Positions 28,305-37,680 of a stretch of DNA of 64,000 nucleotides are shown piece after piece. The notes below the pieces were generated by a model. The model had not been told where the DNA came from and ran no database searches. It worked only from the letters and a program-made list of their open reading frames with translations. Origin of the DNA: Flavobacterium sp. (GTDB lineage: Bacteria; Bacteroidota; Bacteroidia; Flavobacteriales; Flavobacteriaceae); contig CP051546.1 of assembly GCA_012837155.1 (NCBI GenBank), positions 2,855,699 to 2,919,698 on the forward strand, in the 5' to 3' direction. The translations under genes and the position numbers were made by a program. Positions within the stretch are counted from its first letter, which is position 1. Each line of letters starts with the position of its first letter.

Positions 28305-29393
28305 GTACATTCTAAAAATTAATAATACATTTTGTTCCAAACCCATTCAAAACATCATTTAGGTTCAATTTTAAATTTTCAAATGAAGTATAAGCTTCAA
28401 ATTTTAACCATTTATATTTAACAAATCTCCACAAGATTTCAATTAAGTTCAATTCTGGCGAGTAAGGTGGAATAAAATAAATAAGTAAATCTAACTCTTC
28501 CCATTCTTTGATTTTTTCTTTGAATTTCTTACTGGTATGAAGCGAAGAGTTATCCAAAACCACAACTGTTTTTTTAGTTATATTCTCAACAAATTTGTCA
28601 AAAAAGACAATCATCTTTTCAGAATTTATTGTTGTTTCAAAAATATCAAAAACCAAATTACCCAATGTATTCATTAAACCAAAAACACTTACGCTTTTCC
28701 CCCGAATTGCAGGCAATAAATAGGTTCTCCTTCAGCTTGCCAAGCATACGGAACATTCGGCACTAAACTAAAATGACTTGCGTCACCGTAATATAAGTCA
28801 ATGTATTGTTCCTGATTTAATTGTGACAATTTATCCAATTCCTTTTTTGAATTTAGAAAAGCGCTCTCACAACGTTTTTTTTTCAAAGATTTACGGCATC
28901 TTATCCATTTATATTTTAGTCTCTTTTAAAAAATTTATGAGTGTTTGTTTTGTTATTTTTATTTGATGCTCTCGCTCTAAAATATCCAAAACCACATTCA
29001 AATTTCTACTGTTTTCCTTTACTAGTTCAGGTATTAGGTCAGCTACTTTTTTTAGTTTTAATTTTGCGCCACGACCTTTTTTAACGCCTAATGTTTCCTG
29101 TTTGTCTTTTAATGTTTTAGCCATTTCCCAAGCATTAAAAAACAATGTTACTCGTAATCTTCCAACCTTCATAATTCTAGAAATTTCCATTATGGATTTT
29201 TTGTCAACAGAAAGTTTTAGAAACATACAGCGCTCCCTGACTACCGAATTAGGGGAGTTTCTATACAAATAATCCACTACTTTTTTTTCCTCCTCTAATA
29301 ATTCTACATATCTCATTTATGTCGTATTTAAAATATAAATATACGAAAAATATGTCAAAAATAAAAATGTATTACTAATTATTTTCAAGTACT
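28304..29393 (-). mobile_element. IS630-family insertion sequence (about 1090 bp)
   Basis: Ends agtac...aattaataatacatttt and, inverted, agtac...aattagtaatacatttt (one mismatch in the last 17) give inverted repeats of about 30 bp. The TA dinucleotide is duplicated at 28302-28303 and 29394-29395, the IS630/Tc1 hallmark. It contains one frameshifted transposase gene. Confidence 0.85.
28312..29316 (-). pseudogene. IS630-family transposase (two frameshifts)
   Basis: About 335 residues when bridged. N-terminal HTH (SIMEISRIMKVGRLRVTLFF) and linker, then a DDE domain: YYGDASHFS (first Asp), VVLDNSSLHTS (second Asp), PPYSPELNLIEILWRFVK (Glu). Shift one is near 28911 (one A too many in actaaaata); shift two is near 28724 (one T missing, restoring EPIYLPAIRGKSVSVFG). 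They may be real decay, an expression-control shift, or sequencing indels like those elsewhere; the order HTH-D-D-E is complete. Confidence 0.85.
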
Positions 29394-29647: not shown

Positions 29648-29680
29648 CATTCTTAATACAACACACTTTTGAAAGTGACT

Positions 29681-31126
29681 ATGGAAAAGATTATTGAAGA
29701 AAGCAAGCAAGGCGAAAGCCTCGTTTTAGATTATAAACCGGAGAATACCAAGAAACTCTTTATAGAAAGTTACGGCTGTGCGATGAATTTTTCGGATAGC
29801 GAAATCGTGGCTTCCATCCTATCGTCAAACGGGTATAATACCACGCAAATCCTTGAAGAAGCCGATTTAGTTTTGGTAAATACCTGCTCCATTCGGGACA
29901 AAGCGGAACAAACCATCCGAAAACGTTTAGAGAAATACAACGCCGTGAAACGCACCAATCCGAAGATGAAAGTAGGCGTTTTGGGCTGTATGGCAGAACG
30001 TTTGAAAAGTCAGTTTCTGGAAGAAGAAAAAATTGTTGACCTCGTTGTAGGACCAGATGCATACAAAGATTTACCGAATTTATTGAGCGAAGTTTCAGCA
30101 GGTCGCGATGCGATTAACGTGATTTTGTCGAAAGACGAAACTTATGGCGATATTTCACCTGTTCGATTGAATTCGAATGGCGTTTCGGCTTTTGTCTCTA
30201 TCACACGTGGTTGCGATAATATGTGTACGTTTTGTGTGGTGCCTTTTACCCGAGGTCGCGAACGCAGTCGGGAACCACAAAGTATAATGAAGGAAATTCA
30301 AAATTTGTGGGACAAAGGGTTTAAGGAAATTACCCTTTTGGGACAAAATGTCGACAGTTATTTATGGTATGGCGGCGGACTGAAAAAAGATTTTACCAAC
30401 GCTTCCGAAATGCAAAAAGCAACCGCGGTTGACTTTGACCAATTACTCGAAATGGTAGCGGTTGGTTTTCCAAAAATGCGCATTCGGTTTTCGACTTCTA
30501 ATCCGCAAGACATGCACGAAAGTGTGTTGCACGTGATTGCGAAACATTCGAATATTTGCAATCATATTCACTTGCCAGTCCAATCGGGAAGCAATAGAAT
30601 CCTCAAAGAAATGAACCGTTTGCACACTCGGGAAGAATATATGACTTTGATTGATAAAATCAGAACTATCATTCCGAATTGCTCCGTTACACAAGATTTG
30701 ATTTCAGGTTTTCCAACTGAAACTGAAGAAGATCACCAAGATACTTTGAGTTTAATGGAATACGTGAAATACAGTTTTGGCTATATGTATGCTTACTCAG
30801 AACGCCCTGGAACACTGGCTGAACGCAAAATGAAAGATGACGTTCCAGAAACCACAAAATTGCGAAGATTACAAGAAATTGTGGATATGCAAAGAAACCA
30901 TAGTGCGATGAGAACTCGGGAATTCGTAGGGCAAACCGTGGAAGTTTTGATAGAAAAAGTTTCGAAAAAATCAGAAAACGATTGGTCTGGAAGAAATTCA
31001 CAAAGTATTGTGGTGGTTTTCCCAAAAGAGAATTATAAAATTGGTGATTTTGTGAATGTAGAAATTACAAGCTGTACCAGCGGGACTTTGATTGGAAAAG
31101 CGGTTGGTTTGAGTGAGATGAATTAA
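29681..31126 (+). CDS. miaB: tRNA-2-methylthio-N6-dimethylallyladenosine synthase
   Basis: 481 residues, intact, start at ATG 29681. N-terminal MTTase domain with cysteines in YGCAMNFSDSE, LVNTCSIR and GCMAERL. Radical-SAM cluster motif CDNMCTFC (in TRGCDNMCTFCVVPF) and IHLPVQSGSNRILKEMNR. C-terminal TRAM domain ending SGTLIGKAVGLSEMN. It adds the methylthio group to ms2i6A37 in tRNAs. The last ~110 bp of the coding region are the first copy of the tandem array that follows. Confidence 0.96.
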   Translation: MEKIIEESKQGESLVLDYKPENTKKLFIESYGCAMNFSDSEIVASILSSNGYNTTQILEEADLVLVNTCSIRDKAEQTIRKRLEKYNAVKRTNPKMKVGVLGCMAERLKSQFLEEEKIVDLVVGPDAYKDLPNLLSEVSAGRDAINVILSKDETYGDISPVRLNSNGVSAFVSITRGCDNMCTFCVVPFTRGRERSREPQSIMKEIQNLWDKGFKEITLLGQNVDSYLWYGGGLKKDFTNASEMQKATAVDFDQLLEMVAVGFPKMRIRFSTSNPQDMHESVLHVIAKHSNICNHIHLPVQSGSNRILKEMNRLHTREEYMTLIDKIRTIIPNCSVTQDLISGFPTETEEDHQDTLSLMEYVKYSFGYMYAYSERPGTLAERKMKDDVPETTKLRRLQEIVDMQRNHSAMRTREFVGQTVEVLIEKVSKKSENDWSGRNSQSIVVVFPKENYKIGDFVNVEITSCTSGTLIGKAVGLSEMN

Positions 31127-31704
31127 TTTTTTAGCCACAGATTAAAAAGATTTTCACAGATTTTTTGAAATCCTTTTTAAGTTGTGGTTTTTCAAAAAGA
31201 GAATTATAAAATTGGTGATTTTATTTAGTAGAAATTAAATCGTGTACATCAGGAGCACTAATTGGAAAAGCGGTTGGTTTGAGTGAAATGAATTAATTTT
31301 TTAGCCACAGATTAAAAAGATTTTCACAGATTTTTTGAAATCCTTTTTAAGTTGTGGTTTTCCCAAAAGAGAATTATAAAATTGGCGATTTTGCGAATGT
31401 GAAAATTAAGAGTTGCACCAGCGGGACTTTGATTGGCGAAGCGGTTGGTTTGAGTGAAATGAATTAATTTTTTAGCCACAGATTAAAAAGATTTTCACAG
31501 ATTTTTTGAAATTCTTTAAATCCTTTTTGAGTTGTGGTTTTTCAAAAAGAGAATTATAAAATTGGTAATTTTATTTAGTAGAAATTAAATCGTGTACATC
31601 AGGAACACTAATTGGAAAAGTGGTTTGAGTGAGATGAATTAAAAAATTTCGCCACAGATTAAAAAGATTTTCACATATTTTTTGAAATTCTTTAAATCCC
31701 TTTT
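31010..31704 (+). repeat. Tandem array of the miaB 3' end plus a palindromic element (4 units of 170-180 bp)
   Basis: Units begin near 31010 (inside miaB), 31181, 31351 and 31531. Each contains the terminal miaB codons (gagaattataaaattggt ... ggttggtttgagtga), the miaB stop region, and then a palindromic element starting gccacagattaaaaagattt. Unit 3 still encodes a miaB-like tail (NYKIGDFANVKIKS, TSGTLIGEAVGLSEMN). Units 2 and 4 share other changes (ttatttagtagaaatt, cgtgtacatcagga), so the array seems to have grown by doubling of a two-unit block. It fills the 600-bp gap before the GxxExxY gene. Confidence 0.9.
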
Positions 31705-31714
31705 AATCTGCGGC
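31651..31714. repeat. Palindromic element, copy next to the GxxExxY start
   Basis: gccacagattaaaaag at 31651 pairs with cccttttaatctgcggc ending at 31714, a hairpin of about 16 bp with few mismatches. It ends 14 bp before the GxxExxY start codon. Related copies lie at 31134-31187, 31304-31357 and 31475-31537, with the weaker partner arm cctttttaagttgtgg. Confidence 0.8.
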
Positions 31715-31728
31715 AAAAAAAAGTAACA

Positions 31729-32100
31729 ATGGACGGATATAGAGAAAATGAAACATATAAAATTATAGGAATTTGTATGGAAGTCCATAGAATCCTTGGC
31801 CCAGGATTGTTAGAAATTGTTTATAAAGAAGCACTAGAAATCGAATTTAAAGAAAACAATATCCCTTTCGAAAGAGAAAAAGAATTTATAATTGAATACA
31901 AAGGCAAATTTTTATCTCATAGATTTTATGCTGACTTTATTGTGAATGGGGACATAATTTTAGAGGTAAAAGCAGTAAAAGAATTTTCTAATGAACATAT
32001 AGCTCAAATTCTAAATTATATAAAGTTAGCTGATTCTGAGATTGGCTTAATGGTCAATTTTCAATCAAAATCACTACAATATAAAAGATACGCTTTATAA
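31729..32100 (+). CDS. GxxExxY family protein (PD-(D/E)XK nuclease-like)
   Basis: 123 residues, intact. The name motif is present as GLLEIVY (residues 24-30). The PD-(D/E)XK core can be followed: Glu in GLLEIVYKEALEIEF, FYADFIV (Asp), ILEVKAV (E-x-K), then HIAQILNYIK. Family function is unproven; the fold predicts nucleic-acid cleavage or binding. The gene is bounded by inverted copies of one palindromic element (31647-31675 and 32105-32133), its stop codon touching the right copy. This gives it the form of a single-gene mobile unit. Confidence 0.88.
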   Translation: MDGYRENETYKIIGICMEVHRILGPGLLEIVYKEALEIEFKENNIPFEREKEFIIEYKGKFLSHRFYADFIVNGDIILEVKAVKEFSNEHIAQILNYIKLADSEIGLMVNFQSKSLQYKRYAL

Positions 32101-32104
32101 AATC

Positions 32105-32133
32105 TGTGAAAATCTTTTTAATCTGTGGCGAAA
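32105..32133. repeat. Inverted half-copy of the palindromic element
   Basis: tgtgaaaatctttttaatct followed by gtggcgaaaa is the reverse complement of 31647-31675 over 29 bp. It lies 5 bp after the GxxExxY stop codon, forming the right boundary of the inverted-repeat-flanked unit. Confidence 0.85.
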
Positions 32134-32348: not shown

Positions 32349-32360
32349 AAAAAGTTTAAG

Positions 32361-32402
32361 GTTTAAGGTTTAAAGTTCTTGCGAAAACTTTAAACCTTAA
32401 AC
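32361..32402. repeat. Palindrome GTTTAAGGTTTAAAGT (16-bp perfect arms)
   Basis: gtttaaggtttaaagt (32361-32376) and actttaaaccttaaac (32387-32402) are perfect arms with a 10-nt loop (tcttgcgaaa). A related palindrome sits between murD and ftsW at 62245-62271, so this is a dispersed intergenic repeat. Confidence 0.75.
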
Positions 32403-32427: not shown

Positions 32428-33683
32428 ATGGAAACAGTTCAATCAATAAAACAACGGTTCGAGATTATCGGGAATGACCCGAAACTCAATCGTGCGATAG
32501 AAAAAGCCATTCAAGTAGCACCAACCGATATTTCGGTTTGGTGGTGGGAGAAAGTGGTGTTGGAAAGGAAAGTATTCCAAAAATAATTCACACCCTTTCG
32601 CACAGGAAACACGGCAAATACATCGCCGTAAACTGCGGCGCCATCCCAGAAGGAACCATTGACAGTGAGCTTTTTGGCCACGAGAAAGGCTCTTTTACCG
32701 GAGCGACAGGAACTCGCGAAGGGTATTTTGAAGTCGCAAACGGCGGAACTATTTTTCTTGACGAAGTGGGCGAATTACCCCTGACAACTCAGGTTCGATT
32801 GCTTCGTGTGTTAGAAAATGGCGAATTTATAAAAGTAGGTTCTTCGCAAGTACAAAAAACAAATGTGAGAATTGTGGCTGCAACCAATGTCAATTTATTC
32901 AACGCCATCGAAAAAGGAAAATTCCGAGAGGATTTATATTACCGCTTAAGCACCGTAGACATTACCTTGCCTCCTTTACGTGATCGAAAAGACGATATTC
33001 ATTTGTTGTTTCGAAAATTTGCTGCTGATTTTGCTCACAAATACAAAATGCCTCCCATAAAATTAGATGAAAATGCAGTTCAGTTATTGCAAAAATTTCG
33101 CTGGAGCGGAAACATCCGGCAGTTGCGAAATGTGGCAGAACAAATTTCGGTTTTAGAAACCAATCGAGACATAACCGCAGCAACATTGCAATCTTATTTA
33201 CCAAACGAAGGAAGCCACTTACCCTCGATTATAAAGGATAAAAAAAACAAAAACGATTTTAGCACCGAAAGAGAAATTTTGTACAAAGTGCTTTTCGACA
33301 TGAAAAGTGATTTGAATGATTTGAAAAAACTGACTTTAGAATTGATGCAAAACGGCGTCACAAAAGTTCAGGAAACCAATTCAAATTTAATCAAAAAAAT
33401 ATATGGTTCTAATGCAGATGATAGCGAAATAGATTTTGAAGAAGAACCAAGAGCAGATGTAATCACTACACAAATTGACGAAAATAATTATCAGGATCAA
33501 GAGGATAATTTCCAATTTGCCGAAAGCGTCGAAGAGGAAGAGGTCTTAAAACTAGAACAAAAAGAGGTCGAAATGATAAAAAAATCATTAGAAAAAAACA
33601 AAGGAAAACGAAAAATTGCCGCCGATGAATTAGGGATTTCAGAAAGAACTTTGTATCGAAAAATAAAACAATTTGATTTGTAA
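32428..33683 (+). CDS. Sigma-54-dependent transcriptional regulator (frameshifted)
   Basis: About 418 residues. ATG at 32428 begins [20 protein letters not shown]; the frame breaks near 32537, where one more T gives [20 protein letters not shown]+ domain with Walker A GESGVGKE, the sigma-54 contact loop GSFTGA, Walker [13 protein letters not shown] and the R-finger region [18 protein letters not shown]-terminal HTH ([22 protein letters not shown]). It lacks a receiver domain, so its input is unclear. It heads an apparent operon with lptE, a TPR-like gene and secG. A sigma-54-like site precedes groES 2 kb downstream. Confidence 0.92.

Positions 33684-36022: not shown

Positions 36023-37680
<1,658 letters not shown>

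Follow-up and report, generated by a model that had tools for sequence, protein, structure and literature searches.

A Flavobacterium GxxExxY nuclease gene framed, like most relatives sampled, by private inverted heptamer arrays is a candidate driver of dispersed palindromes

Most sampled genes of the GxxExxY family, which encode small proteins with PD-(D/E)XK-type nuclease residues, are framed by inverted arrays of a short directional repeat that is private to each paralogue, and gene-free palindromes built of such repeats are dispersed through related genomes. We studied one such gene, together with its relatives, in a 64,000-nucleotide stretch of a Flavobacterium sp. genome (contig CP051546.1; the whole of this stretch is called the window). 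Our conclusion is that the GxxExxY nuclease probably recognises its private heptamer repeats and drives the spread and turnover both of its cassette and of the gene-free palindromes. In the open-access literature the family (GxxExxY, PDDEXK_3, PF13366, TIGR04256) is mentioned incidentally or merely listed, and we found there neither an established role nor a report linking it to palindromes, inverted repeats or transposition (subscription papers and the TIGR04256 curators' notes were outside the scope).

Framing was assessed in 80 loci from named genomes of 11 phyla, these being the best 80 of at least 575 confirmed relatives; six lay at contig ends, which left 74 usable. Framing was scored as the best inverted match of the 200 bp upstream of a gene with the 200 bp downstream, and scores of at least 26 were called strong. 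A strong inverted repeat spans 55 of the 74 GxxExxY genes versus 16 of 595 neighbouring open reading frames (ORFs) of the same loci (Fisher p 2e-49), and 9 of 611 random intervals. Recurrence of the framing at other GxxExxY genes was one of two tests that the original prediction had set for itself beforehand, and the framing does recur, including outside Bacteroidota, where 20 of 30 loci score 26 or more with 150-bp flanks. It is present in nine of the eleven sampled phyla. Scoring of all 216 unique genes gathered, less six dropped for want of flanks, gave 157 of 210 that reach 26 with 150-bp flanks, although many of these share one site and so are not independent.

Each arm is an array in which a directional heptamer, C[AG]CN[AGT]A[GT], recurs, reading inward from either end. 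Heptamer density per 100 bp is 5.47 in the arms, compared with 0.30 for the opposite strand and 0.17-0.23 for the far flanks, values that are descriptive because the pattern was defined after the loci had been viewed; with the random intervals given above, they agree with the earlier expectation that the element is enriched near GxxExxY genes and not equally common at random loci. Arm self-similarity peaks at 9-10 and 19-21 bp, and for 213 of 244 arms a period of 8-11 bp fits best. The left and right arms of the same gene match one another (score at least 30) in 28 of 44 genes, whereas arms of different genes within the same genome match in 2 of 214 pairs (8 genomes). The copies in the window's genome have repeats that vary by place (CACAGATT, CGCAAATT, GCAAAGACGCAAAG and others); at the copy L003, an array lies only to the left. 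When a heptamer word set trained on Bacteroidota was applied to other phyla, 11 of 30 genes but 5 of 201 control ORFs had arrays on both flanks; as heptamer words differ between phyla, the motif-free inverted-repeat score is the better cross-phylum test. T-rich tracts lie outside the outermost heptamer at 60 of 127 left ends and, on the other strand, at 79 of 132 right ends, in an orientation that is wrong for intrinsic terminators. Other palindromes of the genus (GTTTAAGG, GTTTCAGG, TTGATAATTG and GATTGCTTCG types) were tried as GxxExxY cassette ends and rejected, as they occupy both flanks in 0 of 210 genes. A separate observation is that locus L081 (G151:C4:68683-69764) contains a tandem cassette duplication, with two GxxExxY genes 740 bp apart and nearly identical flanks.

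The original prediction expected the flanking repeats to covary with the protein, and this is the case. Among genes that lack a common flanking gene, protein similarity tracks repeat similarity (Mantel rho 0.29; best of 999 permutations 0.10). Heptamer position 5, which is A or G, underwent about 20 changes on the protein tree (118 columns; 16 of 95 inner branches well supported) and residue 9, scored as Thr or not, about 21. Clusters with Thr9 have G at position 5 in 39 of 41 cases and the other clusters have A in 42 of 57; over nine independent pairs, an average of 6.8 agree and 0.1 disagree (median sign-test p 0.016, range 0.004-0.375). Residue 9 ranks first of 274 tests, followed by residues 105, 71, 13, 104 and 6, and its value of 6.64 is to be set against 5.02 at most for the best of all tests in 40 simulations of independent traits (same tree, aimed at 18-22 changes with 40-60 rows in state 1). 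The window copy conforms, in that it combines Thr9 with CACAGAT, and in the predicted structure residues 6, 9 and 13 would share one face of helix 1 (helix 6-23). The simplest account of the position 5/residue 9 covariation would be that the protein reads the repeat directly. The earlier claim that the protein acts on the repeat thereby gains indirect support, the action itself being something we infer. Two other candidate codes were rejected: position 7 against residues 67/96, where R67 is present in 57 of 60 G-type and 1 of 38 T-type clusters yet the pattern reflects one deep split, and position 2, for which the best value (3.53) falls inside the null-simulation range made for position 5.

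Window-type arms (one mismatch at most) are present in 34 of 61 genomes of the genus with a maximum of 89 in a single genome (G052), and a reversed control pattern gave 3 matches over all 61. Twenty dispersed places were fetched, mainly paired matches by choice. Twelve of them are simple palindromes of 37-82 bp that lie mostly between long ORFs, and five (L358, L361, L364, L365 and L374) hold a palindrome of another type inside, which is the trace expected where one palindrome has inserted into another. The number of window-type arms has a median of 8 in the 17 genomes with a related GxxExxY gene beside miaB and of 0 in the 44 others (p 5e-5), where the others are genomes not known to have a gene at that site and may include some that carry one.

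Turnover was followed at orthologous sites. The site bordered by miaB and a regulator gene was examined at 90 loci, of which nine had no usable match (two of these, L250 and L251, have GxxExxY beside miaB by coordinates), leaving 81 species. A GxxExxY gene, in some cases broken, is present in 30 species and absent from 51, and a matching end pair is found at 28 of the 30 occupied sites (the exceptions are L170 and L179). The ends are of three kinds (CACAGATT, CACAAATT and CACGAATT) that broadly follow protein group; by identity thresholds, the proteins of L180 and L219 belong to the third group, yet their ends are of the second kind. On the host tree, built from the regulator with L166 excluded for a frameshift, occupancy requires 20 changes (shuffled mean 23.8-24.0), with a minimum of 8 imposed by well-supported branches. 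All three groups, and empty sites too, occur within a single tight clade of 25 species. Species that lack the cassette often carry palindromes of other families in the gap between miaB and the regulator; those of GTTTAAGG, GTTTCAGG and TTGATAATTG that fill it resemble the GTTTAAGGTTTAAAGTT type, and short internal repeats are seen as well. At a second site in the same 25 species, nine have a ACACATAG-ended cassette, one a left-truncated cassette, one a 3' relic, seven window-type palindromes, five parts or traces of these, and two are clean; a stop codon interrupts the gene of the G015 cassette, the remaining eight genes having been checked only in part. The third site was readable in 23 of the 25 species, 22 of which have a palindrome there: window-type in three, window-type enclosing a CGCAGAT-type in six and CACGAAT-type in 13, five of the last without the outer GCC. 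Empty sites, which the original prediction proposed to seek in sister strains, were found in related species at both the first and the second of these sites.

The repeats could instead be a static signal for regulation or repair. The nuclease would then bind the arrays either in order to regulate its own gene or in hairpin processing, and species would differ through ordinary recombination and deletion. Genes of the window's type are under strong purifying selection (median ratio of non-synonymous to synonymous substitution, dN/dS, of 0.09), close relatives mostly occupy the same site, and plain binding would yield covariation equally well, all of which such a signal would explain. It would not lead one to expect gene-free palindromes at tens of sites, palindromes nested within one another, close species that differ in palindrome type at one site, or clean sites beside occupied ones, and the T-rich tracts are oriented wrongly for intrinsic terminators. 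We regard this explanation as unlikely.

If the nuclease instead drives the spread of its repeats, as we favour, the protein would bind the heptamer arrays, likely through helix 1, and would cut the palindromes, either in hairpin form or at the ends. Copies would then enter new intergenic spots, perhaps with a preference for older palindromes, as the cut is repaired or replicated. Such a system would operate in the manner of REPIN/RAYT (RAYT, REP-associated tyrosine transposase), but with an unrelated enzyme and another repeat design.

Several results weigh against this reading. Framing scores are below 26 for 53 of 210 genes, although several low scorers (L033, L151 and L153, for example) have arrays on both sides by eye. 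Occupancy of the miaB site is slightly clustered on the host tree, 21 of 500 shuffles being as low, and the association of arm number with the miaB-site gene carries no phylogenetic correction. Heptamer position 7 needs just three tree changes and its two independent pairs give no support. At the orthologous sites and in the nested copies no target-site duplication was seen by eye, the sequences being too diverged for base-level certainty. Flanking genes are shared by 508 of 515 gene pairs that are at least 80% identical, and hence moves to new sites are rare. Two 84.6%-identical genes of L118 were considered as a fresh transposition and rejected because the similarity extends past the repeats. 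Plasmid or phage carriers fared no better, with 8 of 72,556 plasmid and 0 of 50,697 phage records matched by one tblastn query (E 1e-5). Moreover, none of the eight GxxExxY genes of G052, the genome with 89 arms, has the window-type repeat by eye, and in G042, with 84 arms and nine GxxExxY copies, no window-type gene is among the seven copies read; the cognate gene is thus dispensable for persistence of the palindromes. Finally, Y1 transposases (Y1_Tnp, RAYT) are encoded in 19 of 20 related genomes.

These last points are what would be expected if the palindromes were ordinary REP-like elements moved by a RAYT (HUH) enzyme of the same genome and the GxxExxY gene were cargo caught between two copies, G052 and G042 being the genomes richest in window-type arms. 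However, at the 12 RAYT loci read (L436-L447), one per genome, neither flank ever had more than a single heptamer, and single ones were present at two loci. Five of these RAYT-like loci have strong inverted repeats of their own, all of unrelated sequence (TTCCGTAGGAAT..GTCCCGTAGGGAC, GCTTCGGAGAAGC, GTTCCGAAGGAAC and GTTCCGCTAGGAAC types), and seven have none. G004 has 48 window-type arms and not one Y1_Tnp match, and chance capture predicts neither a private repeat for each paralogue nor the covariation of position 5 with residue 9. Mobilisation by RAYT therefore appears quite improbable. The original prediction of a RAYT/REP-like unit inside its own repeat is partly supported: it withstood both of the refuting tests it had set, but the enzyme itself is no RAYT, being of PD-(D/E)XK type, and the RAYT loci lack the arrays. 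A homing-type selfish element, in which the nuclease cuts cassette-free alleles and homologous repair, using the conserved genes on either side, copies the cassette into them, would suit the PD-(D/E)XK fold, the rarity of moves to new flanks and the observation that very close species differ at one site in cassette type or have no cassette there, but it is very improbable given that a single genome has cassettes at many unrelated sites and that the inverted arrays, which classical homing does not need, stay at both ends and disperse without the gene.

We know of no kind of mobile repeat tied to a stand-alone PD-(D/E)XK nuclease. The broader proposal, on which we are evenly divided, is that GxxExxY nucleases are the enzymes behind a new class of prokaryotic mobile DNA, in which a stand-alone PD-(D/E)XK enzyme moves its own cassette plus swarms of gene-free palindromes without a DDE, HUH, tyrosine or serine transposase, by means of a modular heptamer code (G at position 5 with Thr9, mostly A otherwise) that diversifies so that each paralogue runs a private repeat population. 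If mobility holds, an additional enzyme class joins those of prokaryotic mobile elements and the REPIN/RAYT lifestyle arose again with another fold; if it fails, what is left is a nuclease whose coded DNA target serves an unknown purpose. The findings link the GxxExxY family with a definite DNA target and explain a set of palindromes dispersed between genes. They also make the role directly testable, as there is now a named cognate array, hairpin and protein, together with a candidate specificity residue.

The window protein scores 140.4 bits against TIGR04256 (GxxExxY; cut-off 35) and 126.6 bits against PF13366 (PDDEXK_3; cut-off 22), and in the domain search the latter was the sole profile above its cut-off; no Y1/HUH domain reached its own. 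None of the alignment-invariant columns L23, G24, G26, E29, Y32, D69, E79, K81 and Y97 is lost, and the PD-(D/E)XK core has the ExK and QxxxY of Cas4/RecB-type enzymes. Structure modelling gives a small nuclease of Cas4-like PD-(D/E)XK type that retains its conserved residues, and the original assignment of a 123-residue GxxExxY gene with PD-(D/E)XK-type residues was correct. No solved structure could be accepted as a profile relative, the three matches (E 0.5-0.9) all being unrelated. The family is present in 50 of 61 sampled genomes of the genus and 74 of 148 of the phylum (the window's genome counted in both), and Table 1 of PMC12085832 lists an annotated GxxExxY protein for CpV-BQ1, a virus that infects algae, so the family reaches an algal virus. 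The window's genome has the family at several further places, some copies intact and others broken; the intact paralogues are 39-50% identical to the window protein and hence are not recent copies. The broken copies may in part be sequencing indels, as the adjoining regulator and probably groEL are also frameshifted. The groEL reading frame at 36053-37330 appears shortened, which with the frameshifted regulator at 32430 suggests assembly indel errors.

At the window locus (Table 1) a 29-mer, TTTCGCCACAGATTAAAAAGATTTTCACA, at 31647-31675 (+) is matched by an identical inverted copy at 32105-32133 (-), as originally described; five matches with three mismatches or fewer are present in the window, where shuffles predict 0. 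Taken as a 40-nt pair, the arms (31647-31686 and 32094-32133) are 93% complementary with 407 nt between them. The stop codon (32098-32100) had been said to touch the right copy; it lies inside the 40-nt right arm and is 4 bp away from the 29-mer. The left copy is indeed part of a palindrome, the arms of which are 74% complementary (DNA fold of 31641-31721, z -2.9), but it ends 10 bp rather than the claimed 14 bp before the ATG. The four further upstream palindromes of the original prediction are three (starting at 31130, 31300 and 31471) and look like one local amplification rather than separate insertions, since each belongs to a tandemly repeated unit, roughly 170 bp long, made up of the miaB 3' end and the palindrome. 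This miaB 3' end plus palindrome is repeated three times (31010-31649) in an ABAB pattern of 170-bp units, and by eye the duplication junctions and the palindrome end share a TTGTGG microhomology, as though the duplication had been primed from the palindrome end. A second miaB match lies at G000:C1:2887046-2887162. No RNA family could be assigned, as all six matches at E of 1 or less were far under their gathering scores. Nearby, a further palindrome of GTTTAAGGTTTAAAGTT type lies at 32354-32402, 3' of a small ORF, and 28312-29316 contains pieces that, judged from the ORF sequences alone, resemble a broken IS630-type transposase.

Table 1 Features of the window locus (positions within the window)
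Feature	Position	Strand	Remarks
GxxExxY gene, 123 aa	31729..32100	+	predicted Cas4-like PD-(D/E)XK nuclease
Left end, complete palindrome	31647..31718		arms 31647-31680 / 31685-31718; inward array CACAGATT-AAAAAGATT-TTCACATATT
Right inverted repeat	32094..32133	-	29 nt identical to left (32105-32133), 93% over 40 nt
Gene-free palindrome, copy 1	31130..31192		3' of miaB stop codon; fold of 31124-31192, z -5.8
Gene-free palindrome, copy 2	31300..31362		within tandem duplicate of miaB 3' end
Gene-free palindrome, copy 3	31471..31537		within tandem duplicate
miaB 3' end and tandem duplicates	31010..31649	+	~170-bp units, each closed by a palindrome
miaB	29669..31126	+	upstream border of orthologous site
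Sigma-54-type regulator	32430..33683	+	downstream border of orthologous site; named from sequence reading; frameshifted near 32540 in assembly

Among known systems, REPIN/RAYT as described by Bertels and Rainey (PMC3116915) comprises several distinct enzymes per genome, each beside its own dispersed hairpin-forming inverted doublet, and REP enzymes are reported to co-evolve with their cognate REPs (PMC3116915 and PMC8266576). The GxxExxY system is similar in its dispersed extragenic inverted doublets able to form hairpins and in having distinct enzymes within a genome, each gene beside its own repeat type. It differs in that the enzyme is a PD-(D/E)XK nuclease rather than a Y1/HUH protein and in that each arm is built of heptamers recurring roughly every 9-10 bp, arrays that the RAYT loci of related genomes lack. 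REP repeats are tagged GTAG or CGTC at one end according to PMC3733652, and neither of the tags given there is present at the ends of the window element (31647-31718 and 32105-32133). Insertion sequences with miniature inverted-repeat transposable elements (MITEs) also have inverted repeats that frame one gene, gene-free derivatives that keep the same ends, and orthologous sites both occupied and empty; unlike these, the GxxExxY cassette has no transposase of a known class, showed no target-site duplication to the eye at the diverged sites read, and has intact paralogues in the window's genome that are only distantly alike (the identities given above). A four-cysteine iron-sulphur site is a feature of Cas4/RecB-type nucleases. 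In contrast to Cas4 and RecB-AddB, the window's GxxExxY protein has 123 residues, is encoded by a stand-alone gene within repeats and has one cysteine, hence no such site. The ends of Tn7 contain several directional binding-site repeats, inverted relative to each other, and its TnsA protein is a PD-(D/E)XK nuclease. Although the repeats of the window cassette are of about 9 bp and the 407 nt between its arms are too few for a DDE partner or a TnsC-like gene, the GxxExxY cassette too has directional repeats at each end, mutually inverted.
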